Part shown: positions 3,094-61,473 of the stretch, piece after piece
Position numbering within the stretch: position 1 is the stretch's first letter
Layout: each line of letters begins with the position of its first letter
Assembly (NCBI RefSeq): GCF_016613535.2
Contig: NZ_CP071518.1
Span: 2,294,001 to 2,358,000, forward strand
Direction: 5' to 3'
Source of the DNA: Lysobacter solisilvae
Lineage (GTDB): Bacteria > Pseudomonadota > Gammaproteobacteria > Xanthomonadales > Xanthomonadaceae
DNA length: 64,000 nucleotides
The notes under the pieces: model-generated
Database searches by the model: none
Seen by the model: the letters and a program-made list of their open reading frames with translations, nothing else
What the model was told of the DNA's origin: nothing
Position numbers and translations under genes: made by a program

Positions 3094-3369
3094 GGTACGC
3101 GGGCGTCTGATTCCGGCACGCGAGCGGCCAATTTTTGGCCAACGGCTACCAAAATCGGGACGGCGGCGAGTCTTTTTTTGGACGCTCGCGTCCAAATCCG
3201 GGACGCGCGCGTCCAAATTTCGGTCGTCGCCGGGCAAAAATCAGACGCGCGCGTCCAATTTCGGGACGCCGCCGTCCTGATTCGGGACGCGAGCGTCCAA
3301 AATTTGGACGCGCGCGAGTCTTTTTCGGACGCGAGCGTCCAAAAATCAGTAGCTCGCGAGCAAACTTTG
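3094..3369. repeat. Intergenic repeat array 1, about 13 units of 20-22 bp
   Basis: The 577-bp gap between the copB stop and the tRNA-Phe gene holds no convincing gene. Within it are about 13 imperfect units of 20-22 bp. Each has a GC-rich palindromic core, best form GGACGCGAGCGTCC, followed by 7-9 A/T-rich bases such as AAATTTCG or AAAAATCA. Examples of good units start near 3180, 3202, 3285 and 3327. Unit length varies (20, 21, 22), so it is not a codon-periodic protein repeat. The AT-rich patches contrast with the roughly 70% GC of neighbouring genes. I do not recognise a named repeat family. Bases 3370-3542 hold nothing I can identify. Confidence 0.8.
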
Positions 3370-3542
3370 GTCGGTTGCCGGCCCGTCCGGGCACGCGGAG
3401 AGCGGCGCACGGTTGGCTTCCGGGTGCCTTCCGTGGGGGCCTCGACTGTGCGATTCGACGGCGGCGCATCTACGGATCATCCAGCTCCGCGGCCACCAGT
3501 CAGTGCGGTGACGGTGACATCCCCTGGGGCGGAGCCCGGAAA

Positions 3543-3577
3543 CAAAAAGCCCCGCGAACGAAGATCGTTGCAGGGCT
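3543..3577 (-). terminator. Rho-independent terminator of tRNA-Phe
   Basis: Read on the minus strand, AGCCCTGC and GCGGGGCT form a stem enclosing a second small hairpin (AACGA/TCGTT), followed by TTTTTG. It lies 12 bases past the CCA end of tRNA-Phe, as expected for its terminator. Confidence 0.8.
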
Positions 3578-3589
3578 GATGTTCTTACA

Positions 3590-3665
3590 TGGTGGCCGGG
3601 GAGGGAATCGAACCCCCGACACGGGGATTTTCAATCCCCTGCTCTACCAACTGAGCTACCCGGCC
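3590..3665 (-). tRNA. tRNA-Phe (GAA)
   Basis: A 76-nt cloverleaf on the minus strand. The acceptor stem is GGCCGGG/CCCGGCC and the D-arm contains AGCTCAGTTGGTAGAGC. The anticodon arm is GGGGA-TTGAAAA-TCCCC with anticodon GAA, and the T-arm contains GGTTCGATTCC. The discriminator A and the CCA end are encoded. A sigma70-like promoter lies upstream and a terminator downstream, so it is a single-gene transcription unit. Confidence 0.97.
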
Positions 3666-3701
3666 GATCACAAGCCGTGTGCGGGCCGTGAAAGAAGCGA
3701 G

Positions 3702-3730
3702 ATGATACGGGCGGCCTTTCGGTCTGGCAA
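3702..3730 (-). promoter_or_regulatory. Sigma70-type promoter of tRNA-Phe
   Basis: On the minus strand TTGCCA (3730-3725) is separated by exactly 17 bp from TATCAT (3707-3702), which lies 37 bp before the tRNA 5' end. This is the clearest complete -35/-10 pair I found in the window. Confidence 0.75.
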
Positions 3731-3827
3731 GCCGGATGGTGGCTGAATATGCGGCCGGCCCTATTGCCGTGGCCGGGCGCGGGCGGCGCATCATTGGGCT
3801 ATCCCCTTGTCCGGTAAGGAAAAGCAC

Positions 3828-4274
3828 ATGGAACGCCTACGATTCATGCACCTGCGATTCGTCCTGGCCGCGTGCATCGCGCTGCTCGCCGCCGCCGGAT
3901 GCGCCTCGACCAACACGACCGGCGTGGGCATCGACGCCCAGCGGGCCGCGCTATACCGCGCCCATGCCGGCGAACCCATCGACGGGTTCCTGGGCCGCAT
4001 CAACGGTTGGACTTCGCTGGACGACACCGCGCTGGTGGTCTGGACGGGCGCCAACCGGGGCTACCTGCTCGAGGTGATGGGCCCCTGCCAGGAACTGCCC
4101 TGGGCGCACACGATCACGCTGTCCAACGGGCAGTTCGACCGCGTCAGCCGCTTCGACGAACTTCGCGTGATCGGACGCGGCGTGGCGGCCATCCCGTGCC
4201 AGATCCGCGAGATCCGCCCGATCGACGTCAAGGCGGTGAAGGAAGCCCGCAAGCAGGCGCGCGAAGCGGGCTGA
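3828..4274 (+). CDS. Small DUF6491-like putative lipoprotein
   Basis: Protein of 148 aa with no assigned function. I place the start at ATG 3828 because GGTAAGGA sits 7 bases upstream; a TTG 21 bases earlier is possible but has no such site. Residues 1-25 form a signal peptide ending in a lipobox (LAAAGCAS), so the mature protein is probably lipid-anchored at a Cys near residue 25. The mature part is mixed alpha/beta (DGFLGRINGWTSLDD, LLEVMGPCQELPWA) and resembles the DUF6491 proteins common in Xanthomonadaceae. It stands alone, convergent with yggX. The family assignment is from memory of the motif pattern and is moderately sure. Confidence 0.75.
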   Translation: MERLRFMHLRFVLAACIALLAAAGCASTNTTGVGIDAQRAALYRAHAGEPIDGFLGRINGWTSLDDTALVVWTGANRGYLLEVMGPCQELPWAHTITLSNGQFDRVSRFDELRVIGRGVAAIPCQIREIRPIDVKAVKEARKQAREAG

Positions 4275-4287
4275 TTGCGCGCGTGGC

Positions 4288-4557
4288 TCAAGCCTCGGGG
4301 ACGTATCCCGCGGGTTTCTCGGCGTCGCCGCCGAAAAGGAACTTCTCCATCTCGCCGGCCAGGAACGCCCGGTGCTTGGGGTCCAGCGGCGACAGCCGGT
4401 TCTCGTTGATCAGCATGGTCTGGTGGGCCAGCCACTTCGACCAGGCGGGTTTGCCGACATTGGCGAAGACGCGCTGGCCCAGTTCGCCCGGCCAGGGCAC
4501 GAAATCCAGTCCCTCGGCCTCGCGCTTTTCGTGGACGCAGAAGACGGTGCGGGGCAT
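4288..4557 (-). CDS. yggX: Probable Fe(2+)-trafficking protein YggX
   Basis: Protein of 89 aa matching YggX along its whole length: [19 protein letters not shown] at the N-terminus with the conserved Cys7, then [20 protein letters not shown] and KFLFGG. YggX protects iron-sulfur clusters from oxidative damage and is thought to handle labile iron in the cytoplasm. Its ATG overlaps the mutY stop as TGATG, the same mutY-yggX arrangement found in enterobacteria, which links repair of oxidised DNA to iron control. Translation is probably coupled to mutY, so the mutY frameshifts, if real, could lower its expression. Confidence 0.95.
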
Positions 4558-5686
4558 CAGGCGGATCCTTCGATAAGTGTGCGGATCGGTGCGGGCAGGC
4601 CGAGCGTGGCCAGTTGCGCGCGCGCTACCCAGCGCAGGTCGTCATTGTCGCCCACGCGCGGACGCAGGGCCACGCCGGCCACGTGCAGGGGCTGCAGCTG
4701 CAGGCGGAAATGGCTGAAGGCGTGATCGATCGCGGGCAGCGCACGCGCGCTGTCGAAGGCGCCGGTGGCGTGCGTGTCGAACCATTCGCGCGCACCGGCC
4801 GCATCGTCGGCCTGCGGCAGCGTCCACAGCGACGCCCAGATGCCCTGCGGTGGCCGGCGCTGCAGGAGCACGGCGCCCGCATCGTTTTCCAGCCACAGGA
4901 CGTGGGCCTGCCGGCGCGGTGAAACCTTCGAGGGCTTCGCCGAGGGGAGTTCCCCCGGCCAGGCCTTCGATGCGGGCCACGCAATCGGCTTGCAGCGGGC
5001 ACAGCACGCAGGCTGGCGCGGCGCGCGTGCACAGCGTGGCGCCCAGGGTCCATCTGCGCCTGCGTGTAGTCGGCCATGCGCGTGGCATTCGCACCCGTCG
5101 GCAGGTGCGACTGGGCGAACGCCCAAAGCTTTTTCTCGACGGCAGGCAGGCCGGGCCAGCCGTGGACGCCGTGGAAACGCGCGAGCACGCGTTTGACATT
5201 GCCATCGAGGATCGCGTGCCGGTCGCCCCAGGCCTGGGAGACGATCGCCGCCGCGGTGCTGCGGCCGATGCCGGGCAGGGCGGTCAGCGCATCCATGTCG
5301 CGCGGCAGGTCGCCGCCGTGTTGCTCGACGCAGACCCGCGCGGCCGCGTGCAGATTGCGGGCGCGGGCGTAGTAGCCCATGCCGGACCACAGCGCCAGGA
5401 CGTCGTCCAGTGGCGCCGCGGCCAGTGCCTGCACCGACGGCAACGCCGCCACGAAACGGTCGAAATAGCCGATGACGGTCCGCACCTGCGTCTGCTGCAG
5501 CATGATTTCCGACAGCCACACGCGGTAGGGCGTGCGCGGATGCTGCCAGGGCAGGTCGTGGCGTCCGGCGATGTCGAACCAGGCGAGCAGGCGGGCGGCG
5601 TAGGTGGATGCCGTCGTCGTGGCCTGCTCCGGCGCGGCATGTTCGGCGGCATCGGCGCTGCGCCGGCTTTTCAGGCGTGCGCTCAC
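4557..5686 (-). pseudogene. mutY: A/G-specific adenine glycosylase MutY, interrupted by two +1 frameshifts
   Basis: MutY removes adenine mispaired with 8-oxoguanine. The coding region would give about 375 aa from a GTG at 5686 that overlaps the upstream stop (GTGA). The N-terminal part is intact: SEIMLQQTQVRTVIGYFDRF, the helix-hairpin-helix LPGIGRSTAAAI and the catalytic ILDGNVKRVLARFHG. One extra base in the GGG run at 5046-5048 shifts the frame before the iron-sulfur Cys motif (C-x6-C-x2-C-x5-C, LCTRAAPACVLCPLQADC). An extra base in the CCCCC run at 4952-4956 shifts it again, and the NUDIX-like C-terminal domain (VLLQRRPPQGIWASLWTLP) continues in a third frame to the stop at 4557. As written, the product loses the cluster and the 8-oxoG-reading domain. 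Both changes are single-base insertions in G/C runs, so sequence error is the leading explanation. Confidence 0.85.
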
Positions 5687-6948
5687 GGGCTGCCGGCCTC
5701 GCCGTGGAATTCCACCTCCACGCCTTCCAGTACCGCGCCGGAAATCTCGATGCGCGGCGTGCTCAGCGTGCCGGCGAGCGGCGGCAGCGGATTGCCGGCG
5801 GCCGCGGCGTCGGCCCATTCGAGCATCTGCGCGATCTTGAACCGGCCGTCGAAGCGGGTGGCGTCACGGCTGACGCGCAACGCAACCGGATCGGTTAGAG
5901 AGAAGTCGCCGGCGTAGTCCAGGCGGAAGGGCAGCGCCGAATCCGACTGGCCCAGCGGCGGCGGCAACGCGGGCCAGGCCGGTGGCCACTGCGCGATGTC
6001 GCCCGCGAGTCCGAGCGTGAGGCGCTCGGTCAGCACGACGTCGCCACGTGCATGCAGCAGCGGAATGAGGTCGTCCTTCGGGTCGCCCCTTCCGCGCAGG
6101 AACACGCCGGCCTGCGTCAGGTGCACGCCGTCACGCAGCTGCAAGGGCCCGTGCAGGCCGAGGGCGAATGGCAGCCGGGTATCGCCGGATTCGTAGCGCG
6201 CGGCGAGGCCGACATGCGCCGGCCGCAGCCGCCAGTCTTCATTCCCGCGGCGCAGCGGCCCGGAGAAGGCGAGGGTGCCGGGCATCGCCCATGCCTGTCC
6301 GTTCTGGACGCGCAGCCGGCCATGGGCGGCGAATCCGCTGCCGCCCGGCTTGACCAGGATCTCCGGCCGGCTGAGGGCCACGGCCAGATCCACCGTGGCG
6401 GTCAGCGGCGCGTCGAGATAGCGGGCCCGCACGTGCGCCTGCAGCGGCTGGTCCGCACGCAGTCGCGGAGTGTCGATATCGATATCGGCCAGGCGCCACG
6501 GCGGTCCGACGAGCTCGCCTGCGCGGATGCGGATGCCATCGGTGAAGGTCGGCAGGCGCGGCGCCGAAGGCGGGCGGCTGTCGAGCCAGCGCTGCAGGGC
6601 CGGCAGGTCGATGCGGGGCGCATCCAGTTCCAGCCGGCTGGCGGTGAGATCCCCGCCAGCGGCGCGCAGCGTCGACCAGGGCAGCGAGACCAGGATGCGG
6701 CGCGCGCGCAGCACCGGTGTCTTCGCGTCGGGCTGGCGTGCCTGGACATCGCGCAGCACCAGTACCGGGGTGCCGCGCAAGGTGTACTCGGTCGTGCCGT
6801 GGGCGGTGATCTCCAGGCCAAGTGCGTTTCCCGCGCGATCGAGCAGGATGCCCGCCACCTGCCTGGGCTGTGCCAGCCAGGCCAGCGCCGCGGCCAGCAC
6901 GAGCAGCACCAGGGCCGCGGCGACGAGTAGGCGGGAGCGGCGGCTCAT
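5683..6948 (-). CDS. AsmA-like membrane-anchored protein
   Basis: Protein of 421 aa with an N-terminal signal anchor (SRRSRLLVAAALVLLVLAAALAWLA), followed by a long region rich in short beta strands. VAGILLDRAGNALGLEITAHG resembles the start of AsmA-type domains, and TLSTPRIEISGAVLEGVEVEF the end. AsmA-like proteins act in the cell envelope and are linked to lipid transport or outer-membrane assembly. It lies 8 bases after ftsY and overlaps mutY by GTGA, so it is the second gene of an ftsY-asmA-like-mutY-yggX operon. The domain call is by pattern and moderately sure; the substrate is unknown. Confidence 0.7.
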   Translation of the reverse strand: MSRRSRLLVAAALVLLVLAAALAWLAQPRQVAGILLDRAGNALGLEITAHGTTEYTLRGTPVLVLRDVQARQPDAKTPVLRARRILVSLPWSTLRAAGGDLTASRLELDAPRIDLPALQRWLDSRPPSAPRLPTFTDGIRIRAGELVGPPWRLADIDIDTPRLRADQPLQAHVRARYLDAPLTATVDLAVALSRPEILVKPGGSGFAAHGRLRVQNGQAWAMPGTLAFSGPLRRGNEDWRLRPAHVGLAARYESGDTRLPFALGLHGPLQLRDGVHLTQAGVFLRGRGDPKDDLIPLLHARGDVVLTERLTLGLAGDIAQWPPAWPALPPPLGQSDSALPFRLDYAGDFSLTDPVALRVSRDATRFDGRFKIAQMLEWADAAAAGNPLPPLAGTLSTPRIEISGAVLEGVEVEFHGEAGSP

Positions 6949-6956
6949 CCGGTGGG

Positions 6957-8282
6957 TCAGTTGCCCAGCGACTCGGGGAGCAGCGCGTCCACGAAGGACT
7001 GCGCGTCGAACACGCGCAGGTCCTCCGGACGTTCGCCGATGCCGGCGTACCGGATCGGAATACCGAACTCGCGCGCCAGCGCGAACACGACCCCGCCCTT
7101 GGCGGTGCCGTCGAGCTTGGTCACCACCAGGCCGGTGACGCCCACGGCGGCGTGGAACTGGCGCAGCTGCGAGAGCGCGTTCTGGCCGGTGGTGCCGTCG
7201 ATGACCATCAACACTTCATGCGGCGCGCCGGGGTCGAGCTTCTGCAGGACGCGCTTGATCTTGCCCAGTTCGGCCATCAGACCCTGCTGCGTGTGCAGGC
7301 GCCCGGCGGTGTCGGCGATCAGCACCTGCGTGCCGCGGGCCTTGGCGGCCTGCAGGGCGTCGAAGGCGACCGAGGCCGCGTCGGCGTTCTGCCCCTGCGC
7401 CACCACGGGCACGCCGTTGCGCTCGCCCCAGGCCTGCAGCTGCGCGACGGCGGCGGCGCGGAAGGTGTCGCCGGCGGCGAGCATCAGCGGACGGCCCTCG
7501 TCCTTGAAACGCTTGGCGAGCTTGCCGATGGTGGTGGTCTTGCCGACGCCGTTCACACCCACGGTGAGCAGGACGAACGGCCCGGCCTTCGGGTCGATCT
7601 CCAGCGGGACCGCCACCGGCGCCAGGATCGCCAGCAGATCCTGGCGCAAGGCGCGCAGCAGTCCGCCCGCATCGGCAAACTCGCGCGCCTTCATGCGCTT
7701 GCGCAGGTCCTGGATGAGCTGGGTGGTGGCCGTGACGCCGACGTCGGCAGTGATCAGCGCGGTCTCGATCTCGTCGAGCAGATCGTCGTCCAGGCGCGGA
7801 TTGCGCGAGAACAGCCCGCCCAGGGTGCGTGCGAACGCGCTGCCGCGCAGACGGTCTCGCCAGCCCTTCTTGCCCGGCGCGGCTGCCTCGCCGGCTGGTG
7901 CGGATGCCGGCTCGGCGAAAGCTCCGGGGCCGGGTTCGGCCATGGCAGGCTCGGAAACGGCGGGTTCGGGAACGGCGGGTTCGGAAACGGCGGGTTCGGG
8001 AACGGCGGGTTCGGAAACGACGGGTTCGACCGCTGCGCGGGCATCGACGTCCATCGCCGCGGCGATGATTTCGGCAGGCAGCGGTTCGTCCGGAGCCGAC
8101 GCTGGCGCCGCGACCGCGGCGTCGGCTTGCGGCGCCGGCGCATGCTGGACGGAAACGTCGTGGACGGAAGCATCCGGTGCCGGAGCATCAGGCCCGCCTG
8201 TCGCTCCCGCTGCCGGCGGGGCGTCGGTGGCCGGGACGGCGGGGGGCGTTTCGGGTTTCTTGCGGCGGAAAAATCCGAGCAT
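6957..8282 (-). CDS. ftsY: Signal recognition particle receptor FtsY
   Basis: SRP receptor GTPase, 441 aa, which docks ribosome-SRP complexes at the inner membrane with Ffh/4.5S RNA. The start is the ATG at 8282 (MLGFFRRKK, a basic membrane-binding tip); the longer open frame upstream is a shadow across rsmD. Residues 10-135 are an acidic, Pro/Ala-rich A domain containing a tandem SEPAVPEPAV repeat. The NG domain follows, with P-loop GVNGVGKTTTIGKLAK near residue 240, AGDTFRAAAVAQL, DTAGRLHTQ, TKLDGTAKGG and the closing GIGERPEDLRVFDAQSFVDAL. First gene of the operon with the AsmA-like gene, mutY and yggX, and divergent from rsmD across 63 bases. Confidence 0.97.
   Translation of the reverse strand: MLGFFRRKKPETPPAVPATDAPPAAGATGGPDAPAPDASVHDVSVQHAPAPQADAAVAAPASAPDEPLPAEIIAAAMDVDARAAVEPVVSEPAVPEPAVSEPAVPEPAVSEPAMAEPGPGAFAEPASAPAGEAAAPGKKGWRDRLRGSAFARTLGGLFSRNPRLDDDLLDEIETALITADVGVTATTQLIQDLRKRMKAREFADAGGLLRALRQDLLAILAPVAVPLEIDPKAGPFVLLTVGVNGVGKTTTIGKLAKRFKDEGRPLMLAAGDTFRAAAVAQLQAWGERNGVPVVAQGQNADAASVAFDALQAAKARGTQVLIADTAGRLHTQQGLMAELGKIKRVLQKLDPGAPHEVLMVIDGTTGQNALSQLRQFHAAVGVTGLVVTKLDGTAKGGVVFALAREFGIPIRYAGIGERPEDLRVFDAQSFVDALLPESLGN
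7947..8029 (-). repeat. 15-bp tandem repeats in ftsY A domain
   Basis: About five and a half copies of a 15-bp unit (GGGTTCGGRAACGGC on the plus strand). On the coding strand they give alternating EPAVS and EPAVP pentapeptides at roughly residues 85-112 of FtsY. The two forms alternate regularly, suggesting duplication of a 30-bp unit. Confidence 0.85.
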
Positions 8283-8345
8283 CGAGAATCTGGGGGAGTG
8301 CGCGAGAATGACGCACATGATAGCCCCCGCCCCTGCCCACGCCCG

Positions 8346-8996: not shown

Positions 8997-9515
<519 letters not shown>

Positions 9516-9657
9516 TCGGCGGCTGGCTCTGGCGTGCTTGATGCCAGCAGGCCGGTCCGGATCGACCGCACCGATCCAACGTCGCACCTCCAACGCCGCA
9601 CCGATTCCACCACCGCTGTCCAGAAACATACTTACGAAGACGGGGAGAGACCGAACC

Positions 9658-10684: not shown

Positions 10685-12468
10685 TGCGGCAGCAGATTGC
10701 GCGGGTGGTGTCCTCCAGGTTGTTCGCCAAAGGTCTCCTTGTCCTGGCGCTGGTCGTCCCCGGGCTGGGTGTCGCGCCGGTACTGGCCGCATCTGCCCTT
10801 GCGCAGGAGCAGGCGCGTCCGGCTGCCACGGGCGACGCGCCGGCGGCAACGCATCCGCCCGGCGCCGCCATCGCCAGCGCCCATGCGCTGGCCACGCAGG
10901 CCGGCATCGACACCCTGCGCGCCGGCGGCAACGCCTTCGATGCCGCGGTGGCTGTATCGGCGATGCTGTCGGTGGTCGAGCCCATCAGTTCCGGCATCGG
11001 CGGCGGCGGCTTCTTCCTGCTGCATGACGCGCGCAGCGGCAAGGACGTGTTCGTCGATGCCCGCGAGACCGCGCCGGAGTCGGCCACGCCGCAGGCCTAT
11101 CTCGACGGGCAGGGCGAGCTCGACCGCGACCGCGCGACCAACGGACCGTGGTCGGCGGGCATCCCCGGGCTTCCGGCCGCGCTGGTGCATGTCTCCTCGA
11201 AGTACGGCCGGCTGCCGCTGGCCACCGCGCTGGCGCCGGCGATCCGGGTCGCGCGCGAAGGCTTCGAGATCTACCCGCGCATGGAGAAGGGCTACGCCAG
11301 CCGTCGCGAGGTGATGGAACGTTATCGCGGGACCCGCGCGGTGTTCCTCGCCGACGGCGACCCGCCCACCACGGGCGAAATCCTGCGGCAGCCGGAGCTT
11401 GCGCGCACGCTGGAACTGCTGGCGCAGAAGGGCTTCGACGGCTTCTATCGCGGCGAGACCGCGAAGAAGCTGCTGGCCGCGGTGAAGCAGGAGGGCGGCC
11501 GCTGGCGTGCCGACGAACTGGCGGGCTATCGGGTCAAGGAACGCGAGCCGCTGAAGTTCGACTACCGCCAATGGCACGTCACCACGGCGCCCCCGCCGTC
11601 GTCGGGCGGCGTGGCGATGGCGCAGATCCTCCAGGTGCTGGAGGGATGGGACCTGGGCAAGCTCGACGACGCGCATCGTCGCCACCTCGTGGTGGAAGCC
11701 ATGCGCCGCGCCTATCGCGACCGCACCATCTACCTGGGTGACCCGGACTTCGTGAAAGTGCCGGTCGCCCGCTTGACGCATCCGGCCTACGCGGCCGGAC
11801 TGCGCGCGACCATCCATCCGGACAAGGCCACGCCCAGCGCGCTGCTGCCCGGCCAGCCCGCGCCGCTGGAGGACGATGAGACGACGCACTTCTCGATCCT
11901 GGACGCGGAAGGCAATCGTGTCTCCACGACGCAGACCGTCAACCTGCTCTACGGATCGGGCATGGTCGCGCCGGGCACCGGCGTGCTGCTCAACAACGAG
12001 ATGGACGATTTCGCGCTGCGCCCAGGTACGCCCAATGCCTTCGGTGTCATGGGTTTCGGCGCAAACGCGCCGGCGGCGGGCAAGCGTATGCTCAGTTCGA
12101 TGACGCCCAGCTTCATCGAGTCCGACGACACCCTGGCCATCCTCGGCGCGCCCGGTGGCAGCCGCATCATCACCCAGGTGCTGCTGGGCATCCTGGGCTA
12201 CGACGCCGGACTGGACGCACAGCAGGTGGCCGCGTTGCCGCGATACCACCACCAGTGGATGCCCGACGCGATTTCCGCCGAACCCGGCGCGCTCCCCGCC
12301 GACACGATCGCGGCGCTGCAGGCGATGGGCCATACGGTGAGCCCGGGCGAGAGCACCTGGGGCAATCTGCAGACGGTCTCGTGGGACAAGCGGACCAACA
12401 CCCTGGAAGGCGGCAGCGATCCGCGCAATCCGGTGGGCCGCGCCGAGGTGCTGCCCGCCGGCAAGTGA
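10684..12468 (+). CDS. ggt: Gamma-glutamyltransferase
   Basis: Periplasmic enzyme that cleaves the gamma-glutamyl bond of glutathione or transfers it to amino acids; 594 aa precursor. The signal peptide runs to about residue 41. The large subunit carries GGNAFDAAVAVSAMLSVVEP and SSGIGGGGFFLL. Autocleavage exposes the nucleophile Thr in DDETTHFSILDAEGN (near residue 400), with the small subunit following (NNEMDDFA, KRMLSSMTPS, GAPGGSRIITQV). All expected catalytic elements are present. It is translationally coupled to the ferredoxin gene. The enzyme would recycle glutathione or scavenge gamma-glutamyl compounds. Confidence 0.96.
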   Translation: MRQQIARVVSSRLFAKGLLVLALVVPGLGVAPVLAASALAQEQARPAATGDAPAATHPPGAAIASAHALATQAGIDTLRAGGNAFDAAVAVSAMLSVVEPISSGIGGGGFFLLHDARSGKDVFVDARETAPESATPQAYLDGQGELDRDRATNGPWSAGIPGLPAALVHVSSKYGRLPLATALAPAIRVAREGFEIYPRMEKGYASRREVMERYRGTRAVFLADGDPPTTGEILRQPELARTLELLAQKGFDGFYRGETAKKLLAAVKQEGGRWRADELAGYRVKEREPLKFDYRQWHVTTAPPPSSGGVAMAQILQVLEGWDLGKLDDAHRRHLVVEAMRRAYRDRTIYLGDPDFVKVPVARLTHPAYAAGLRATIHPDKATPSALLPGQPAPLEDDETTHFSILDAEGNRVSTTQTVNLLYGSGMVAPGTGVLLNNEMDDFALRPGTPNAFGVMGFGANAPAAGKRMLSSMTPSFIESDDTLAILGAPGGSRIITQVLLGILGYDAGLDAQQVAALPRYHHQWMPDAISAEPGALPADTIAALQAMGHTVSPGESTWGNLQTVSWDKRTNTLEGGSDPRNPVGRAEVLPAGK

Positions 12469-12497
12469 CTGCCGGTAGTGACTGCCGGCAAGTGACT
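12457..12497 (+). repeat. Three 13-14-bp tandem repeats spanning the ggt stop
   Basis: GCCGGCAAGTGACT occurs at 12457-12470 and 12484-12497 with a 13-base variant (GCCGGTAGTGACT) between. The first copy includes the last codons and TGA stop of ggt, so the end of the gene has been duplicated twice in tandem. Confidence 0.85.
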
Positions 12498-12629
12498 GCT
12501 GGCCGGCGGCGTGCCGGCGCGGATCCCGGCCATGCCGGTGTAGCGCACCGCCGCTGTCGCCCACGCACGGGGTTCGCGCGATAATCACTCCATGCGATCG
12601 ACGATCGGCGCGTACAGGATGAGACGGCG

Positions 12630-44196: not shown

Positions 44197-44248
44197 TCGC
44201 CGCCACGATCGCGGGCAGTGCCCGCAATCGCCATCACGATCGCGGGCA
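44197..44248. repeat. Two 21-bp direct repeats with a hairpin between
   Basis: TCGCCRYCACGATCGCGGGCA occurs at 44197-44217 and 44228-44248 (31-bp period). The 10 bases between complete an inverted repeat GCGGGCA-G-TGCCCGC at 44211-44225. It lies just downstream of the kinase-FGE gene (minus strand), and may act in transcript termination though no U-run is present. Confidence 0.7.
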
Positions 44249-46995: not shown

Positions 46996-47060
46996 CGGGC
47001 GAACCGGGGGTGGGGTGGGGGCGTGCGAAGGATCGCCATACGGGGGCGTATCGTCAAGGC

Positions 47061-47521
47061 CGGAATGGATTTCCGGAACACCTGGGAGGCTTCGGGAAGA
47101 CCTAGGAGGCTTCGGGAAGACCTGGGAGGCTTCCGGAAGGCCTGGGAGGCTTCGGGAAGGCCTGGGAGGCTTCCGGAAGACCCGGGAGGCTTCGGGAAGA
47201 CCAAAAACGGATTCGGGAAGACCAGAAATGGATTCCGGAAGTCCGCAGGGGCTTCGGGAAGACCGGAAATGGATTCCGGAAGACGAAAAACGGATTCGGG
47301 AAGACCAGAAATGGATTCGGGAAGACCAGAAATGGATTCCGGAAGACCGCAGGGGCTTCGGGAAGACCGGAATTGGGATTCGGGAAGACCGGAAACGGCT
47401 TCGGGAAGACCGGACAGCCTTCGGGAAGACCGGAAATGGATTCCGGAAGACCGCAGAGCCTTCCGGAAGACCGCAAATGGATCCGGGAAGACCGCAGGGC
47501 CTTCGGCAAGACCGTCCGGCC
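47061..47521. repeat. Intergenic repeat array 2, about 22 units of 20-22 bp
   Basis: The 618-bp gap between the DUF4442 start and the ybbN stop is mostly filled by 22 consecutive units. Each has a 12-base core TTCSGGAAGACC, whose best form contains the palindrome TTCCGGAA. A variable 8-10-base tail follows, such as TGGGAGGC, AGAAATGGA, GCAGGGGC or GGAAACGGC. Tails recur in blocks: the first six units end in GGGAGGC, and later ones mix about four tail types. Mean period is about 20.5 bp. Unit length is not a multiple of three, so open frames across it (47102-47596, 46992-47930) are not evidence of a protein. Confidence 0.88.
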
Positions 47522-53743: not shown

Positions 53744-56542
53744 GTGTCGACCCACCCCGTCCAGCCCGATCCGAATGCCTCCGAACCGCGCGGGTACGAC
53801 CCGCAAGCCGTCGAGGCGTCCGCCCAGCGGTTCTGGAATGCCCCGTCGTGGGACGGCCGCCGCGCCTTCGAGGTCGACGAGGCCTCCGGCAAGCCCAAGT
53901 ACTACTGCCTGTCGATGCTGCCGTACCCCTCCGGCGCGCTGCACATGGGCCACGTGCGCAACTACACCATCGGCGACGTCATCAGCCGCTTCAAGCGCAT
54001 GACCGGCCACAACGTCCTGCAGCCCATGGGCTGGGACGCCTTCGGCCTGCCGGCGGAAAACGCCGCGATCAAGAACAACACCGCGCCGGCGAAGTGGACC
54101 TACGCCAACATCGCGCACATGAAGGAGCAACTGCAGCAGATGGGCTACGCGATCGACTGGTCGCGCGAGTTCGCCACCTGCCAGCCGTCGTACTACGTGC
54201 ACGAGCAGCGCATGTTCGTACGCCTGATGAAGATGGGCCTGGCCTACCGCAAGAACTCGGTCGTCAACTGGGACCCGGTCGATCAGACCGTGCTGGCCAA
54301 CGAGCAGGTGATCGACGGCCGCGGCTGGCGCACCGGCGCGCTGGTGGAGAAGCGCGAGATCCCGCAGTGGTTCCTGAAGATCACCGACTACGCCCAGGAG
54401 CTGCTCGACGGCCTGGACGCGCTGCCGGGCTGGCCCGACGCGGTCAAGACGATGCAGCGCAACTGGATCGGCCGCAGCGAGGGCCTGGAGATCGGCTTCG
54501 ATGTCGTCGACGCCGACGGCCAGCCGGTCGCGCCGCTGACGGTGTTCACCACCCGGCCGGACACGCTGATGGGCGCGACCTTCGTGTCGATCGCCGCCGA
54601 GCACCCGCTGGCCCAGCACGCCGCCGCGGGCGACGCCGACCTGGCGGCGTTCATCGCCGAACTGCGCCAGGGCGGGGTGTCCGAGGCCGAACTGGAAACC
54701 CAGGTCAAGCGCGGCCGGGACACCGGCCTGCGCGCGATCCACCCGATCAGTGGCGAACAGCTGCCGGTCTACGTCGCCAACTTCGTGCTGATGAACTACG
54801 GCACCGGCGCGGTGATGGCCGTGCCCGGCCACGACGAGCGCGACTGGGAATTCGCCACCATGTATGGCCTGCCCATCCGCATGGTGATCGTCCCGACCGA
54901 CGTGCGCGACGCGCTGGAGGAGATCGAGCGGCACGTGGCCGCCCACGACGACGCGATGAACAGCGCGCTGGGCGGCGGCGGCGCCATCGACGTCTACGAC
55001 ACCGGCGCGGCAGTGCAGGTGGTGGAGGAATTCCAGCGGCGCATCGCCGAAGAAGTGCCGTACTGCGAGCGCGGCTGGCTGGTGAATTCTGGTGAGCTGG
55101 ACGGCATGGATTACGCGCAGGCGTACGAGGCCCTGGCTACGCGCTTCGAGCAGGCCGGGACCGGCCAGCGCCGCGTCAATTACCGGCTGCGCGACTGGGG
55201 CGTGAGCCGCCAGCGCTACTGGGGTTGCCCGATCCCGGTGATCCTGTGCGCCCATTGCGGTGACGTGCCGGTGCCCGAGGACCAACTGCCGGTGGTGCTG
55301 CCGGAGGACGTGGCCTTCAGCGGCGTCGCCTCGCCGATCAAGAGCGACCCGGAATGGCGCAAGACCACCTGTCCGCAGTGTGGCGCCGCCGCCGAGCGCG
55401 AAACCGACACCTTCGACACCTTCATGGAGTCGAGCTGGTACTACGCGCGCTACACCTCGCCCGGTGCGGCGGGGCAGGTCGACGATCGCGCCAAGTACTG
55501 GACCCCGGTGGACCAGTACATCGGCGGCATCGAGCACGCGATCCTGCACTTGCTGTATTTCCGCTTCTACCACAAGCTCATGCGCGACCAGGGCCTGGTC
55601 GCCTCCGATGAGCCGGCCATCAACCTGCTCACGCAGGGCATGGTGATCGCCGAGACCTTCTATCGCGAGCGCGCGGACGGCTCGAAGGACTGGTTCAACC
55701 CGGCCGATGTCGAGGCCGTGCGCGACGAACGCGGCCGCATCATCGGCGCGACGCTGAAGTCCGACGGCGCGGCCGTGCATATCGGCGGCATCGAGAAGAT
55801 GTCCAAGTCGAAGAACAACGGCGTCGACCCGCAACTGATGGTCAGCAAGTTCGGCGCCGACACGGTGCGGCTGTTCTCCATGTTCGCCGCGCCGCCGGAG
55901 CAGTCGCTGGAATGGAACGAAGCCGGCGTGGAAGGCATGGCGCGGTTCCTGCGCCGCTTCTGGCGCGAGGTGACCACGCATGTGTCGCAGCCGGACCATC
56001 CGGACGTCGCCACGCTGCTGGCCTCTGGCGCCGCCCTGACGCCGGCGCAGAAGACCCTGCGTCGCCAGCTGCACGAGGCCATCCAGAAGGTCGGCGACGA
56101 CTACGGGCGTCGCCACAGCTTCAACACCGCCATCGCGGCGCTGATGGAACTGCTCAACCACCTGTCGAAGTTCGACGACATGAGCGATGCCGGTCGCGCC
56201 GTGCGCCACGAGGCGCTGCAGGCCATGGTGCTGCTGCTCAATCCGGTCACCCCCCATGTCAGCCACGCACTGTGGCAGGCCCTAGGGCACCCGGAAACGC
56301 TGCTGGAGGACGTGCCGTTCCCGGTCGCCGATCCCGGCGCGCTGGCGCGCGACAGCGTCACCCTGGCGGTGCAGGTCAACGGCAAGCTGCGCGGCACGAT
56401 CGAGGTCCCGGTCAATGTGGCCAGGGAAGAAGCCGAACGGCTGGCGCTGGCCGAACCGGCGGTGGCGCCCTTCGTCGCCGGCCAGACGGTGAAGAAGGTG
56501 ATCGTGGTGCCGGGCAAGATCGTCAACATCGTGGTGGGTTGA
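53744..56542 (+). CDS. leuS: Leucyl-tRNA synthetase
   Basis: Class Ia synthetase of 932 aa charging tRNA-Leu. Start is GTG 53744, (M)[20 protein letters not shown]; upstream open frame crosses the divergent cyclase promoter and is not supported. The HIGH motif is [19 protein letters not shown] near residue 72. The CP1 editing domain contains [20 protein letters not shown] and the [18 protein letters not shown] editing-site segment, and the KMSKS loop is [15 protein letters not shown] near 690. The C-terminal anticodon-binding domain is complete ([16 protein letters not shown]). Confidence 0.98.
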
Positions 56543-56682
56543 GGCCCACCGGCACGACCGGCCGGCAGGAGCCGGCCGCGCCGTGCATGGCGGCCCTGGC
56601 GGCCCGCCGCCGCTACCGCCGGCTATGATCGGCGCGCCGGCAAGGGGCCGGCGTCATGCCGGCCGGACCGGGGGAAGTGGAC

Positions 56683-57240
56683 ATGCGCGTCGTGATGGCA
56701 GGAGTGCTGGGAGGCGTGCTGCTGTTCCTCTGGGGCATGGTGGCGCACATGATGCTGCCGTTCTCCGAGAACGCGATGCTGCAGATTCCCGACGAGGAAC
56801 GCGTGATCGCCGCGGCGCAGGGCAACATCACCCAGAGCGGCGTCTACTTCTTCCCCTACGTCAATTACATGCAGGCCTCGCCGCAGGAGCAGGACGCCTA
56901 CGCGGCCAAGCTTGCGCGCGGCCCCAGCGGCCTGCTGGTGGTGCGGGCGGGCGGCTACGACATGGACATGATCCCGGAGCTGCCGATCGAGGCGATCAGC
57001 AACATCCTGGCCGCGCTGCTGGCCGCGATGGTGGTGTGGGGCCTGCGCGTGGCGACGTACGGCAGGCGGGTGGCCTCGATCTTCGCCTTCGGCGTGGTCG
57101 CCTGGCTGTCGGTGTGCGTGTCGCAGTGGACCTGGTACGGCTTCAGCACGCCCTTCCTGATCAGCGACCTCGTCGACCAGTGGGGCGGGTGGCTGGTGGC
57201 GGGCCTGGGCATGGCGGCGGTACTGAGGCCGCGGGCCTGA
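56683..57240 (+). CDS. Hypothetical membrane protein
   Basis: Protein of 185 aa of unknown family. The start at ATG 56683 has GGGGAAG 6 bases upstream. Predicted helices are VVMAGVLGGVLLFLWGMVAHMML, AISNILAALLAAMVVWGL, SIFAFGVVAWLSVCVSQWTWYG and WGGWLVAGLGMAAVL. A soluble loop (residues 28-95) has PDEERVIAAAQGNITQSGVYFFPYVN. The pattern recalls small conserved membrane proteins in Xanthomonads near leuS, but I cannot name a family. Confidence 0.78.
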   Translation: MRVVMAGVLGGVLLFLWGMVAHMMLPFSENAMLQIPDEERVIAAAQGNITQSGVYFFPYVNYMQASPQEQDAYAAKLARGPSGLLVVRAGGYDMDMIPELPIEAISNILAALLAAMVVWGLRVATYGRRVASIFAFGVVAWLSVCVSQWTWYGFSTPFLISDLVDQWGGWLVAGLGMAAVLRPRA

Positions 57241-57377
57241 TCGTTGCGCGGCATCGCGCGGGGACGGCGTGTCCACGCGGGGTGAAAGGCCCGGCCAGCG
57301 GACCTTTCACCCGCCGCCGGCCGAGGGCTGAACGTCCCGGCTTGCCGCATCCGTCCGCGTCGTCCAGACTTCAGCGC

Positions 57378-58061
57378 ATGATTCGTCAAGCCCTGATCGT
57401 CTCCCTCGCGCTGGCCCTGACGGCCTGCGGCTTCCACCTCCGCAACGACCTCACCCTGCCGCCCGACCTCGGTCCGGTGCAGGTGAAGTCCGTCGATCGC
57501 TACAGTCCGCTGGCCGACTCGCTGCGTTCCTCGATCCAGCGCGCCGGCGTCGCCACCGGCACCGGTGGCCAGAACACCGTGGTGCTGGACCTGTTGTCCG
57601 AGCGCTGGGGCGACACGCCGATCAGCGTGGACCAGTTCGGCCGTTCGCAGGAATACAGCCTGCGCCATGCGGTGATCTTCGAACTGCGCCTGGCCGACGG
57701 CACCGACCTGATGCCGCGGCAGACGATCGAACTGTCGCGCGACTACATTTCCAACCCGGTGAACACCATCGGCACGGAAGGCGAACGCGAGATGCTCGTG
57801 CGCGAACTGCGGCGCGAGATGTCCGCGTCCATCCTGCGCCGCATCGGCGCCGTCGCACGCACCACGGGCCTGACGGCACCGTCGGGCTCGCTGCTCGACG
57901 AGCCGGTGGCCGAGGATGCCGCCAAGGCGGCGCTGGAAGCGGCCGATGCCAATCCGCCGCCCGAGGACACGGCGCCGACCGAGCCCGCGCCTGCCCAGCC
58001 TGCGCCGACCGAGCCCGCTCCGATCGAGCCCGCGCCCGACGTGCCGCCCAAGACGCCCTGA
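57378..58061 (+). CDS. lptE: LPS assembly lipoprotein LptE
   Basis: Outer-membrane lipoprotein that plugs LptD during LPS export; 227 aa. Lipobox LALTACGFHLR gives Cys17 and the characteristic CGFHLRND start. Core segments are LPPDLGPVQVKS, SLRSSIQRAGV and QEYSLRHAVIFELRLADG with RDYISNP. The last 40 residues are a Pro/Glu/Ala tail with repeated PTEPAP units, an extension beyond the usual core. The stop overlaps the holA start (TGATG). Confidence 0.95.
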   Translation: MIRQALIVSLALALTACGFHLRNDLTLPPDLGPVQVKSVDRYSPLADSLRSSIQRAGVATGTGGQNTVVLDLLSERWGDTPISVDQFGRSQEYSLRHAVIFELRLADGTDLMPRQTIELSRDYISNPVNTIGTEGEREMLVRELRREMSASILRRIGAVARTTGLTAPSGSLLDEPVAEDAAKAALEAADANPPPEDTAPTEPAPAQPAPTEPAPIEPAPDVPPKTP

Positions 58062-59107
58062 TGGAACTCAAGCCGGAACAGCTGGCCGCTCAGCTGGGCT
58101 CCGGACCGCTGCGCACGGCCTACCTCATCGCGGGGCCCGAACCGCTGCGGGTGCTCGAAGCCGCCGATGCGATCCGCGCCGCCGCGCGGGCGCAGGGCAT
58201 CGGCGAACGCGAGATCTTCGAAGCCGAAGGCAACCAGCGCGAGCCCGACTGGAGCGCGATGGAGGCCAGCTTCCGTTCCCCCAGCCTGTTTTCCAGCAAG
58301 CGGCTGATGGAAGTGCGCTTGCCCAGCGGCAAGCCGGGCACCGAGGGCGGCCGGCTCATCGCGGAGTTCTGCGCGCAACCTCCGTCCGACATCACCCTGC
58401 TGGTCACCTGCGGCGACTGGAGTCGCCAGCACGGGGGCAAATGGAGCGAGGCGATTGCCCGCGTCGGCCAGGTCGCGATCGCCTGGCCGATCAAGCCGCA
58501 TGAACTGCCCGGCTGGATCGAACAGCGCCTGCGTTCGCGCGGGCTGAAGGCCGAGCGCGACGCCGTCCAGCGGCTGGCCGATCGCGTCGAGGGCAACCTG
58601 CTGGCCGCCGCGCAGGAAATCGAGAAACTCAAGCTGCTGGCCGATGGCGAAGTCATCACCGCCGCGCGCATGGACGACCTGGTCGCCGACGCGGCGCGAT
58701 TCGACGTGTTCCGGCTGATGGACGCGGCCATGAACGGCCAGGCGGCGCAGGTCGCCCGCGTGCTGCGTGGCCTGCGCGGCGAGGGCGAAGCCGTGCCGGC
58801 ATTGCTGGGCATGGTGATCCGCGAGCTGCAGACGGTGGCGTCGCTGGCCCGCGCCGGCAACCTCGCCACGGCGTTCAAGTCGCTGCGCGTGTGGGATTCC
58901 AAGCAGCCCATGTATCGCCGGGCGCTGCAGCGGCACGAGCCCGCGCGCTGGGATGGATTCCTCGCCCAGGCAGGCCGCGTCGATGCGATCGCCAAGGGCC
59001 GTCCGCGTCGCGGTGTCGAGCCCGACGATGCCTGGGTGGCGCTGGAGCGCCTGCTGCTGGCCGTCGCCGAGCCGCGCGCGGCGCGCCTGCTCGCCGCCGC
59101 TACGTGA
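58061..59107 (+). CDS. holA: DNA polymerase III subunit delta
   Basis: Clamp-loader delta subunit that opens the beta clamp; 348 aa. Segments MELKPEQLAAQLGSGPLRTAYLIAGPEPLRVLEAADAIR, SLFSSKRLMEVRLPSGKPG, VEGNLLAAAQEIEKLKLL and ARFDVFRLMDAAMNG follow the HolA pattern through domains I-III. Coupled at both ends: TGATG with lptE and GTGA with nadD. This lptE-holA-nadD order is conserved in gammaproteobacteria. Confidence 0.96.
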   Translation: MELKPEQLAAQLGSGPLRTAYLIAGPEPLRVLEAADAIRAAARAQGIGEREIFEAEGNQREPDWSAMEASFRSPSLFSSKRLMEVRLPSGKPGTEGGRLIAEFCAQPPSDITLLVTCGDWSRQHGGKWSEAIARVGQVAIAWPIKPHELPGWIEQRLRSRGLKAERDAVQRLADRVEGNLLAAAQEIEKLKLLADGEVITAARMDDLVADAARFDVFRLMDAAMNGQAAQVARVLRGLRGEGEAVPALLGMVIRELQTVASLARAGNLATAFKSLRVWDSKQPMYRRALQRHEPARWDGFLAQAGRVDAIAKGRPRRGVEPDDAWVALERLLLAVAEPRAARLLAAAT

Positions 59108-59766
59108 GCCTGGCCGTCTACTACGGCGGCACGTTCGATCCGGTGCACCAGGGACACCTCGCGGTGGCGTGCGCGGCGCGCGACGCGCTGTCGGCCACGG
59201 TCTTCCTCCTGCCCGCGGCCGACCCGCCGCACAAGGGGCCCACGCATGCCGACGCCGACCAGCGCGCGCGCATGCTCGACGTGGCCATCGCCGGCGAGCG
59301 TGGCCTGCGCGTGGATCGCCGCGAACTGCGTCGCGGCGGGCCTTCCTACACGATCGACACGCTGCTCGAACTGCGCGCGCAGTTCGGTCCGCAGGCGCCC
59401 CTGGCCTGGCTGGTCGGCGGCGATTCTCTCAATACGCTGCACACCTGGCACCGCTGGACCGAGCTGTTCGAGCAGGCGCACATCGTGGCCGTGCAGCGGC
59501 CGGGCGCGCGCATCGACGACGAAGCGCTGGCCCGGCAGGCGCCGGAAGTCCACCAGGCCGCCCGCGGCCGGTGGCGGCGGCTGGACGAACTGTCCGCCAC
59601 CCCGGCCGGGGGCTTGGCGGTGCTGCCCTTGCGCGAGCTGCGGCCCGAATCGTCCAGCGAGCTGCGCCGCCGCATCCAGGCCGGCGCGCCCTGGCGCGAC
59701 TGGGTGCCCGCGCCGGTGGCGGGCTACATCGAGCATCAGGGCCTGTATGGCGTGGCGACACCGTAG
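59104..59766 (+). CDS. nadD: Nicotinate-nucleotide adenylyltransferase
   Basis: NAD biosynthesis enzyme converting nicotinate mononucleotide to deamido-NAD; 220 aa. GTG 59104 overlaps the holA stop. The nucleotidyltransferase signature LAVYYGGTFDPVHQGHLAVA is at residues 3-22. ADPPHKGP, WLVGGDSLNTLHTWHRWTEL and the ISSTxIR equivalent PESSSELRRRIQAG follow. Complete. Confidence 0.97.
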   Translation: MSLAVYYGGTFDPVHQGHLAVACAARDALSATVFLLPAADPPHKGPTHADADQRARMLDVAIAGERGLRVDRRELRRGGPSYTIDTLLELRAQFGPQAPLAWLVGGDSLNTLHTWHRWTELFEQAHIVAVQRPGARIDDEALARQAPEVHQAARGRWRRLDELSATPAGGLAVLPLRELRPESSSELRRRIQAGAPWRDWVPAPVAGYIEHQGLYGVATP

Positions 59767-59897
59767 GCGGGCCGTTCGTCGGCCGGTGCGGCCGCAGACG
59801 GCCGTGGGCCCGGCGCTGTCCATGGAAACGATGGGGTCCAGCCCGTCCGTGAAGCCGGTCCAGCGCCCCCGCACACCCGCGTCCACACCGGCTTCCC

Positions 59898-59903
59898 TAT
59901 AAT
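59898..59903 (+). promoter_or_regulatory. -10 element TATAAT upstream of rsfS
   Basis: Exact TATAAT 31 bases before the rsfS start. No recognisable -35 at 16-18 bp upstream (ACCCGC), so strength is uncertain. Confidence 0.5.
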
Positions 59904-59934
59904 CGACCCGCATCCCGCCGAGACCGAGTTCGCC

Positions 59935-60369
59935 TTGACCAGCCAAGCCCAAGTCATCAAGACCCGCCTTCCCAATCCCCCGCCGTCGGCCGATGCGCTG
60001 CTCAGGACGGTGCACGCGGCGGTCGAGGAGCTCAAAGCCCGGGACGTGGTCGAGATCGACGTGCGTGGCAAGAGCAGCGTCACCGACTTCATGGTGATCG
60101 CGTCGGGCACCTCCACCCGCCACGTCAAGTCGATAGCCGACGAAGTGGTGAAGTTCGCCAAGAAGCTCGACATCCAGCCGCTGGGCGTGGAAGGCGAGCG
60201 CGAGGCCGAATGGGTGCTCGTCGACCTGGGCGATGTCGTGGTGCACGTCATGCTGCCGCGCGTGCGCGAGTTCTACGCGCTCGAGCGCCTGTGGACCGTC
60301 GGCGACCAGCCGCCCACGCAGGATGAAGAAGACCGCGAAGGCCACGCCGGGCCGCGCAGCCGGTTCTGA
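59935..60369 (+). CDS. rsfS: Ribosomal silencing factor RsfS
   Basis: RsfS binds ribosomal protein uL14 and blocks subunit joining in starvation; 144 aa. TTG 59935 is the most upstream sensible start, after TATAAT. Core motifs are VVEIDVRGKSSVTDFMVIASGTSTRHVKS, GVEGEREAEWVLVDLGDVVVHVM and REFYALERLW, with a short charged tail. Follows nadD and precedes rlmH, the conserved order. Confidence 0.96.
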   Translation: MTSQAQVIKTRLPNPPPSADALLRTVHAAVEELKARDVVEIDVRGKSSVTDFMVIASGTSTRHVKSIADEVVKFAKKLDIQPLGVEGEREAEWVLVDLGDVVVHVMLPRVREFYALERLWTVGDQPPTQDEEDREGHAGPRSRF

Positions 60370-60602
60370 ATGATGTCGACCGGCGCCGCGCGATCGCGGC
60401 GGCCGGTGGAATGGAAACGGCGCCCCGCGGCGCCGTTTTCCTTTGTGGGGTTTGCCGGTCGGGTCGTGGAATGCGGCGTGGTAGCGGGTCCTGCCGTCGC
60501 CGCACGTCGAACTCACGTGGACTGTCGCCCGCCCAGCGGTCCAACGCGCCGACCCTGCACCGTCCGGCGCGTGAGCCCTGGCGCGTTCGCTACCATGCGT
60601 GC

Positions 60603-61073
60603 ATGAAAGCCAGACTGATCGCCGTGGGCGAGCGCGCGCCGCGCTGGGTCGCCGAAGGCTTCAGCGAATACCAGAAGCGCCTGTCGCACTGGCTGCCGCT
60701 GGAACTGACCGAGGTCGAACCCGGCCTGCGCGGCAAGGGACGCGATGCCGCGCGCGCGATGCAGGACGAGGGCGCGCGGGTGCTCGCCGCACTGCCCCGG
60801 CAGGCGACCGTGGTCGCGTTGGACGGGCGCGGAAAGATGTGGTCGTCCGAACAGCTCGCCCAGCGCCTGGAGCACTGGCGCGGGCAGGGCCGCGACCTGG
60901 CGTTCCTGATCGGTGGTCCGGAGGGACATGCGGGAGAGGTGCTCGCCCGTGCCGACGAGCAGTGGTCGCTGGGGCCGCTGACCCTGCCGCACATGCTTGT
61001 GCGGCTGGTGCTGGCCGAGCAGATCTACCGCGCGGCGGCGCTGCTGGCCAATCATCCCTACCACCGCGCGTAA
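60603..61073 (+). CDS. rlmH: 23S rRNA (pseudouridine(1915)-N3)-methyltransferase RlmH
   Basis: SPOUT methyltransferase of 156 aa acting on pseudouridine 1915 of 70S ribosomes. MKARLIAVGERAPRWVAEGFSEYQKRL is the family start. LDGRGKMWSSEQLAQRLE, FLIGGPEGHAGEVL (SAM-binding knot) and LTLPHMLVRLVLAEQIYRA and NHPYHRA complete it. Between rsfS and rlmH lie 233 bases with no gene. It is followed by repeat array 3. Confidence 0.97.
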   Translation: MKARLIAVGERAPRWVAEGFSEYQKRLSHWLPLELTEVEPGLRGKGRDAARAMQDEGARVLAALPRQATVVALDGRGKMWSSEQLAQRLEHWRGQGRDLAFLIGGPEGHAGEVLARADEQWSLGPLTLPHMLVRLVLAEQIYRAAALLANHPYHRA

Positions 61074-61128
61074 CCGCGGCTGCGGCAAAGCCGGGTGCGG
61101 GGGGCGAAAGGCCGACCCGCGGGCTCCG

Positions 61129-61473
61129 AAAGCCCAATGCTGGGCATTGAAAGCCGCATGCTGGGCTCCGAAAGCCAAACGCTGAGGTCTCAAAGCCAAA
61201 CGCTGGGCTCCCAAAGCCAAACGCTGGGGTCTCAAAGCCAAACGCTGGGCTTTCAAAGCCAAACGCTGGGCTTTCAAAGCCAAACGTTGGGCACTGAAAG
61301 CCAAACGCTGGGCTCCCAAAGCCAAACGCTGGGCTCCCAAAGCCAAACGCTGGGCTTCCAAAGCCAAACGCTGGGCTTCCAAAGCCAAACGCTGGGCTCC
61401 CAAAGCCAAACGCCGGGCATTGAAAGCCAAACGTTGGGCTGAAAGCCAAGCGCTGGGCAATGAAAGCCAAAAC
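61129..61473. repeat. Intergenic repeat array 3, about 16.5 units of 21 bp
   Basis: Sixteen and a half consecutive units AAAGCCAAACGCTGGGCTYYC fill the 514-bp gap between convergent rlmH and tonB-like genes. Fifteen units are exactly 21 bp, one is 19. Positions 1-18 are nearly invariant; the last three vary (CCC, TTC, TCC, CTC, TTG). Each unit can pair AAAGCC with GGCTTT or close variants into a small hairpin. The first two and last three units are the most diverged, as expected for an array growing from the middle. All three plus-strand frames and some minus frames stay open, including repeating heptapeptides, but there is no start-site or codon evidence for translation. Confidence 0.92.

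Follow-up and report, generated by a model that had tools for sequence, protein, structure and literature searches.

Three non-coding tandem arrays lie in the window analysed here, a 64-kb stretch of Lysobacter solisilvae (bases 2294001-2358000 of the single contig, 3,933,292 bases long, that makes up the genome, labelled G000); their unit sequences are unlike one another and their periods all fall near 21 bp. This period is the commonest among non-coding tandem arrays of the sampled genome, where it is common to six families that blastn keeps apart, and it recurs in a second genus. Tentatively, and with somewhat less than even confidence, we read these arrays as species-specific, dispersed, non-coding minisatellites whose unit length would be held near 21 bp, about two helical turns, by the spacing of a putative protein. 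By Tandem Repeats Finder (TRF), array 1 has a period of 21 bp over about 14 unit lengths and is diverged, neighbouring copies being 68-80% alike; its core is CGCNNGCG, with linkers of TCC and A/T runs. Array 2 comprises about 21 units with the core TTCNNGAA, at spacings of 20 and 21 bp and one of 22 (mean 20.5 bp over 19 steps), and array 3 about 17 units of the AAAGCCAAACGCTGGGCNNNN type, at fifteen spacings of 21 bp and one of 19 (mean 20.9 bp). The first-pass annotation, which had described three arrays of unlike units with a shared period, was correct on that point. Coding overlap is zero for all three by our home-made codon-usage gene calls, which are rough and do not take in tRNAs.

We scanned 40 systematic 20-kb stretches plus the window (864 kb, 22% of the genome) for non-coding arrays of at least 2.9 copies, with Markov shuffles of the same DNA as control; arrays below this copy limit, including ones with periods of 22, 24, 27 and 32 bp, were left out of the counts. 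The sample contained 48 non-coding arrays, and the shuffles 1, 0 and 1. Fourteen of the 48 had a period of 21 bp, one of 20, seven of 14, seven of 15 and five of 43; other gene calls in the same scan gave 14 arrays at 21 bp, 9 at 14 and 7 at 15. The 20-22-bp arrays fell into six families, defined as groups joined by blastn: A1, A2 and A3, named after the three window arrays, F4 (locus L140; loci are labelled L and genomes G), F5 (L151, L166) and F6 (L147, L162), with L159 belonging to A2 (E 3e-9). A single 16-bp match between A1 and A3 (E 0.003) was all that blastn found between the six. A2 also touches a family of 43-bp period through L146 (E 0.008) and L159 (1e-7), and these two may be distantly related by sequence. 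Among families with periods of 18-42 bp and about three or more copies, six of seven lie at 20-22 bp, the seventh being an 18-bp G+C-rich repeat; were periods uniform over 18-42 bp, a range chosen after seeing the data, the probability of this would be about 2e-5.

The families are dispersed as well as tandem. Searches of the own genome, with overlapping matches merged, placed A1 at 9 sites, A2 at 10 and A3 at 5; F5 has at least 2 places, F6 has 2 and the 43-bp family 9, and F4 was seen at one, no further search having been made for it. Family members show a lag of 21 bp and its multiples, those of A2 lags of 20 and 21, and some matches occur on both strands, implying that the arrays are partly self-complementary. 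These are the features of dispersed non-coding minisatellites: tandem units of 10-200 bp, at least four copies, a position outside genes and several places per genome. Loci L014, L015 and L016 have a composite stretch in common, and L030 and L031 have a nearly identical centre with unlike outer units and flanks, which fits an exchange of segments between arrays. Taken with the recurrence in a second genus, the period peak, far above shuffles in 22% of the genome, and the six separate families support, for this genome, the first-pass proposal of a genome-wide system over one of three accidents.

Unit length is markedly constant outside A2. One ungapped unit walk, applied to all array classes, counted substitutions against off-register steps (the walk was impossible for three arrays of the sample: one of 21 bp, one of 43 bp and one longer). 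The 21-bp arrays without A2 gave 576 substitutions and 4 off-register steps (21 arrays and 193 units, some found by similarity), and the unbiased sample alone gave 306 and 4 (12 arrays). The corresponding counts were 104 and 1 in 43-bp arrays, 156 and 12 in 10-18-bp arrays, and 116 and 7 in arrays of at least 44 bp, or 13-17 substitutions per off-register step in the last two classes. Relative to substitutions, length changes outside A2 are thus about 6 to 11 times rarer than in 10-18-bp arrays (Fisher p 9e-6, or 0.002 in the unbiased sample alone; p 8e-4 against arrays of at least 44 bp), p values that are optimistic because substitutions within one array are not independent. TRF indel percentages did not separate the classes clearly (ratios of substitutions to indels were 7.4 for 21-bp arrays including A2, 5.3 for 10-18 bp, 4.3 for 44-110 bp and 29.4 for 43 bp) and were superseded by the ungapped walk, which separates A2.

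Local lags tell the same story. Over short scored segments, the best local lag was 21 bp in all 172 segments of A3, all 161 of A1, all 23 of F4, all 50 of F5, 79 of 84 in F6 and 106 of 109 in the second genome, G138; among single steps in A3, A1, F5, F6 and two G138 sets (G138a and G138b), 217 of 223 measured 21 bp. A1 has ten longer steps besides, eight of 42 bp and one each of 43 and 64. The best local lags of A2 were 20 bp in 191 cases, 21 in 181 and 22 in 3 (at L159, 22 in 12 and 21 in 4), and its steps were 20 bp in 86 cases and 21 in 62, with others besides; A2 violates the single-length rule, yet it keeps within about one base. Helical phase is not kept over whole arrays in A2 or the 43-bp family, whose register shifts by as much as one base at each step. 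The first-pass suggestion of selection on helical phasing therefore fails in its strict form, ruled out as a general rule by these two families; the data agree with a leeway of about 1 bp from one unit to the next.

Within units, conservation is uneven. The variance of mismatch among the 21 columns exceeded all 500 randomisations in six of seven families (A3, A1, F5, F6, A2 and G138a, but not G138b), and the conserved blocks are CGC..GCG around a free centre in A1, TTC..GAA in A2, GCC plus GGG in A3 and CTCGG...CCGAG in F5. Such units, conserved parts joined by variable stretches, resemble half-sites whose centres are free and whose linkers have a constant length. Covariation between paired positions showed no excess of paired cells in A3, A1, F5, A2 or G138a, where 470, 67, 480, 289 and 472 of 500 shuffles, respectively, reached the observed value. 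Its absence from five of six families speaks mostly against a selected RNA or cruciform stem, and suggests that the half-sites are kept as letters, as operators are.

The repeats are patchily distributed among relatives. In wide searches of 149 genomes of the family, own genome included, which are less sensitive, with few candidates scored in each genome, A3 and A1 matched solely their own genome, and A2 matched one other, G138, of another genus. From G038, a genome of the same genus, and from G006 and G013, 400 kb apiece were scanned, yielding 1, 1 and 4 non-coding arrays, respectively, and among them no 20-22-bp array. G138 presents the opposite picture: four of the six non-coding arrays in 400 kb of one of its contigs have a period of 21 bp. 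Two of these (L237 and L249) form a family that matches none of the tested G000 arrays, occupies 4 places in G138 and was not found in its congener G016; the other two (L250:19515-19786 and L246:664-839) are A2-like, with blastn E down to 1e-14, a likeness that may reflect shared descent, transfer or convergence. A wider presence in Xanthomonadaceae, which the first-pass annotation had thought worth scanning for, is therefore borne out in G138 and not in the three other relatives; only some genomes acquire, or retain, the 21-bp trait, which is not family-wide. As for transfer, a 17-mer of A3 occurs in 5 viral contigs, with no 18-24-bp array in the sequence examined, and a 21-mer of A2 occurs in no viral contig searched, so we rejected viral transfer; a plasmid source was likewise set aside, A3 giving two weak Priestia matches under a hypothetical protein that we take as chance.

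The 20-22-bp lock across unrelated families suggests that something measures spacing rather than letters. Under our preferred reading, each unit would serve as a binding site, some 14-16 bp long, for a putative DNA-binding protein, often a dimer, and a spacing of about two helical turns would put adjacent proteins on one face of the helix, allowing joint binding. Units of the wrong length would be lost under selection, and arrays would grow by local duplication and trade segments with other arrays via recombination. With about one base of tolerance between neighbours, 20, 21 and 21.5 bp all fit, which they do not under strict whole-array phase.

Several observations weigh against a protein-spacing constraint. 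Unrelated operators in such numbers would call for many proteins, or else for one that is unspecific. ParB_N shows no expansion: G000 has a single match, on which we rejected ParB expansion, and no search was aimed at other binding proteins. A2 lacks constancy, mixing 20 and 21 bp, with 381 substitutions to 31 off-register steps. Uneven columns could also be the product of amplified unit variants. When consensus units (several per family) were compared with shuffles at p<0.05, 6 of 24 units of 20-21 bp were self-complementary, as were 5 of 5 from the 43-bp family and 0 of 20 of 13-17 bp; a single palindromic core in each unit, as first described, is thus not general. Mirror symmetry of conservation is weak, with p of 0.044 and 0.054 in two of seven families and at least 0.2 in five (in A2, two dyads tied and one was scored), and we do not take it as proof of dimer sites. 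In F6, 126 paired cells against 115 expected were reached by none of 500 shuffles, the best dyad pairing 42% of cells. Finally, since two of the four 21-bp arrays of G138 are A2-like, that genome contributes one new family only.

A serious competitor, also short of an even chance, is that these are neutral or selfish satellites, copied by a process that favours steps near 21 bp (such as slippage, or strand transfer favouring two turns), spread by ectopic recombination and tolerated only between genes. This would account for the unrelated sequences at least as well as a spacing constraint does, and it sits well with families that are nearly all species-specific, patchy and found in every gene orientation, and with the segment exchange at L030 and L031. 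It also draws support from a locus-specific class of 13-17-bp arrays, which indicates that the genome readily makes tandem duplications: 10 of 19 lie within 16 bp of a stop codon (a twentieth, the 14-bp array L162:9341 beside a 21-bp array, was dropped from this count). What preferred-step copying, including the fixed-step slippage raised in the first-pass annotation, leaves unexplained is the rarity of length variants amid so many substitutions, and the conserved cores beside free linkers. Between the two, we consider a spacing constraint at the DNA level slightly more likely.

An extension of the protein reading, which we regard as unlikely but worth stating, is that several proteins of changing specificity coat dispersed 14-16-bp sites two turns apart across the chromosome. 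Some Lysobacteraceae would then evolve new families, with new letters and the same spacing, as a fast-turning landmark for the nucleoid or for segregation.

Mobility is a less probable account. Elements like repetitive extragenic palindromes (REP), bacterial interspersed mosaic elements (BIME) or miniature inverted-repeat transposable elements (MITE) could be moved by a REP-associated tyrosine (Y1) transposase (RAYT), and the repeats are indeed short, intergenic, dispersed and, in some families, palindromic. Y1_Tnp has one match in G000 (L259, G000:C1:1786141-1786467) and five in G138, four of them over the cut-off, and a 2.2-copy 21-bp tandem (L259:2751-2796), unrelated to the tested arrays, lies about 1 kb from the G000 gene. 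However, Y1_Tnp also occurs in G074, in G016 and in G006 and G013, the last two poor in arrays over 400 kb each; seven tested arrays had no match (E 0.01) in the 3.3 kb around the G000 gene; and inspection by eye of the edges of 19 arrays revealed no common ends or target duplications. We consider movement by RAYT improbable. Inverted repeats of the GGGGTCAGAGACCGTTATC type flank the G000 Y1 gene on both sides and are unlike the 21-bp arrays. RVT_1 had no match in G000 or G138, on which ground a reverse transcriptase route was rejected.

RNA hairpin arrays, acting as terminators or RNA-level regulators, are similarly doubtful. Units of A1, A3, L166 and the 43-bp family are self-complementary, pairing in F6 exceeds shuffles, and 11 of 30 loci with 21-bp arrays lie between convergent genes, compared with 95 of 563 spacers. 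Against this, pairing stays within shuffles in the five other families scored (A3, A1, F5, A2 and G138a), which led us to reject the idea; 7 of the 30 loci are divergent, and among three array loci compared with Rfam a tRNA alone attains the gathering score. The remaining 12 loci are codirectional, by home-made calls that count array 1 among them with its tRNA uncalled. Seven-codon coding repeats overlooked by gene calling are very improbable and were rejected: 21 is divisible by three, variation in G138a peaks at one codon phase (0.13, 0.16, 0.33) and 33 of 34 tested arrays have some stop-free frame, as high G+C allows, but the A2 frame shifts with each 20-bp unit, 43 is not a multiple of three, no common open frame was found, and A1-A3 lack any phase-of-three pattern or third-position excess. 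A-tract curvature was dropped as a general cause because the consensus units of L140, L147, L162 and L237, from which we judged it, have no A-tract.

The surroundings of the window arrays (Table 1) bear on a further first-pass claim, that such arrays follow the 3' ends of genes. Array 1 comes after a plus-strand gene and faces a minus-strand tRNA at about 3593-3665, and array 3 follows a gene that we take, from its sequence, to be rlmH; for these two the description holds. Array 2 has a minus-strand gene on either side, and it lies upstream of one of these, about 60 bp from the start. As a general rule the claim fails, the seven divergent loci following no 3' end.

Table 1 Repeats and genes of the window and repeat loci elsewhere in G000 (window positions unless a locus or genome label is given)
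Feature	Position	Strand	Basis or context
Array 1 (family A1)	3080..3380	.	TRF, own-genome search, lag profile, unit profile
Array 2 (family A2)	47056..47514	.	TRF, spacings, own-genome and family searches, blastn
Array 3 (family A3)	61121..61471	.	TRF, spacings, own-genome search
rlmH-like gene (presumed)	60411..61073	+	Upstream of array 3; open reading frame, related loci
Gene convergent to rlmH, array 3 between both	61588..62292	-	Home-made gene call
Lone pair of 21-bp element	44197..44248	.	Sequence and pattern count in 864-kb sample
13-17-bp arrays	12457-12503 (window); L135:3205-3325; L146:2489-2561; L148:6422-6462; L153:12315-12366; others		
43-bp family (L276-L281)	G000 at 120173, 2962447, 3734048, 1701731, 3768930, 2479779; three more places		
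GGCGGGTCTCGACCCGCC-type and CCCCCGC...GCGGGGG repeats	L148:5483-5883; L159:18643-18851; L017:1957-2177; L140:4977-5171		

The presumed rlmH locus was compared across 80 relatives, fetched with the product of the window gene. Within 655 kb around the gene in these relatives we found 9 non-coding arrays; one, a triple GGGATTC-like heptamer (3 x 7), has a period of 21 bp and another a period of 20 bp. Some array falls in the first 600 bp after rlmH in 4 of the 80, and the A3 word AAAGCCAAA is absent from those 600 bp in all 80. The arrays at the rlmH 3' site in four other species (L056, L058, L062 and L071) are unrelated, with periods of 21, 147, 15 and 17 bp, as if the place after rlmH were a tolerant site.

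The other repeats are of different kinds. The lone pair, which had been put beside the three arrays, is a real duplication of a 21-bp element (copies 19/21 identical, 31 bp apart), but it stands outside the array class, its 12-bp core having no other occurrence in the 864-kb sample. Within a predicted gene, window positions 1942-2278 hold a 51-bp coding repeat of 6.6 copies and 95% likeness (TRF). The 13-17-bp arrays have unique sequences, mostly in 3-6 copies, and are singletons in clustering; the unit at window position 12457 includes a TGA stop, and the gene end there seems to have been duplicated downstream. The 43-bp family shows side lags near 10, 12, 21-22, 31-33 and 53 bp across six loci, so that modules measuring about 10.75 or 21.5 bp may make up its unit, possibly four in each; steps of about 65 bp occur at two places. 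Tandemly clustered palindromes of the GGCGGGTCTCGACCCGCC type are REP-like, as is a distinct 47-62-bp CCCCCGC...GCGGGGG family; both occur at several intergenic places.

To our knowledge, bacterial minisatellites have mostly been ascribed to local duplication errors. A unit length common to unrelated families separates spacing from sequence, and so makes two questions testable: whether selection for the distance between proteins along the helix acts on bacterial tandem arrays, and whether DNA copying in some genomes proceeds by a step of inherent size. Plasmid iterons are tandem protein sites about two helical turns apart, and F plasmid sopC has 43-bp units with inverted repeats. The arrays described here are iteron-like in being direct repeats about two turns apart (217 of 223 steps, A2 excluded), and unlike iterons or sopC they are dispersed over the chromosome; a scatter over 2-10 places speaks against iterons next to a rep gene at an origin of replication. 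REP, BIME and REPIN (REP doublet) elements are short, dispersed intergenic palindromes; the 21-bp arrays are likewise short, intergenic and dispersed, with palindromic units in some families, and differ from them in comprising unrelated families with one period, with no Y1 link or common ends found. In unit layout they are also unlike clustered regularly interspaced short palindromic repeats (CRISPR): units stand in head-to-tail order, and their variable stretches measure about 4-9 bp, whereas CRISPR arrays have identical repeats with unique spacers of similar length.

Among the titles and opening abstract lines of open-licence papers on intergenic tandem repeats in Lysobacter or Xanthomonadaceae, on 21-bp palindromic repeats or on helical periodicity, none describes such arrays, which is weak evidence that no description exists. 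Intergenic tandem GGGAATC heptamers of the G-quadruplex type, mostly nearer the upstream open reading frame, are described from Xanthomonas, of the same bacterial family, in the part of that report available to us (PMC4692102); relative to these, A1 shows no elevation at lag 7 (0.24 against a base of 0.23), and A3 and A2 show little (0.34 against 0.25). Prokaryotic satellites have been surveyed as tandem repeats of 10-200 bp that are often species-specific, 18 of 119 bacteria exceeding 4 satellites per Mb (Subirana and Messeguer 2019, PMC6749651). The sections of that survey at hand describe scattered short-repeat families in Chloroflexus aurantiacus (from a heptamer) and Burkholderia (12, 14 and 16 nt, from 6-8-nt units), and call transposed non-coding families of long repeats rare (Leptospira interrogans, Methanocella conradii). 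By looser criteria, our genome has 48 non-coding arrays in 0.86 Mb, in unrelated families that are not built from 7-mers and have one unit length, and those sections describe no such shared non-coding period. In the excerpts accessible to us, cyanobacterial small dispersed repeats are about 20 bp long, tandem, variable in copy number, dispersed and possibly mobile (Elhai et al. 2008, via PMC2884548), and the 21-bp arrays resemble them in being dispersed tandem repeats with units of about 20 bp.

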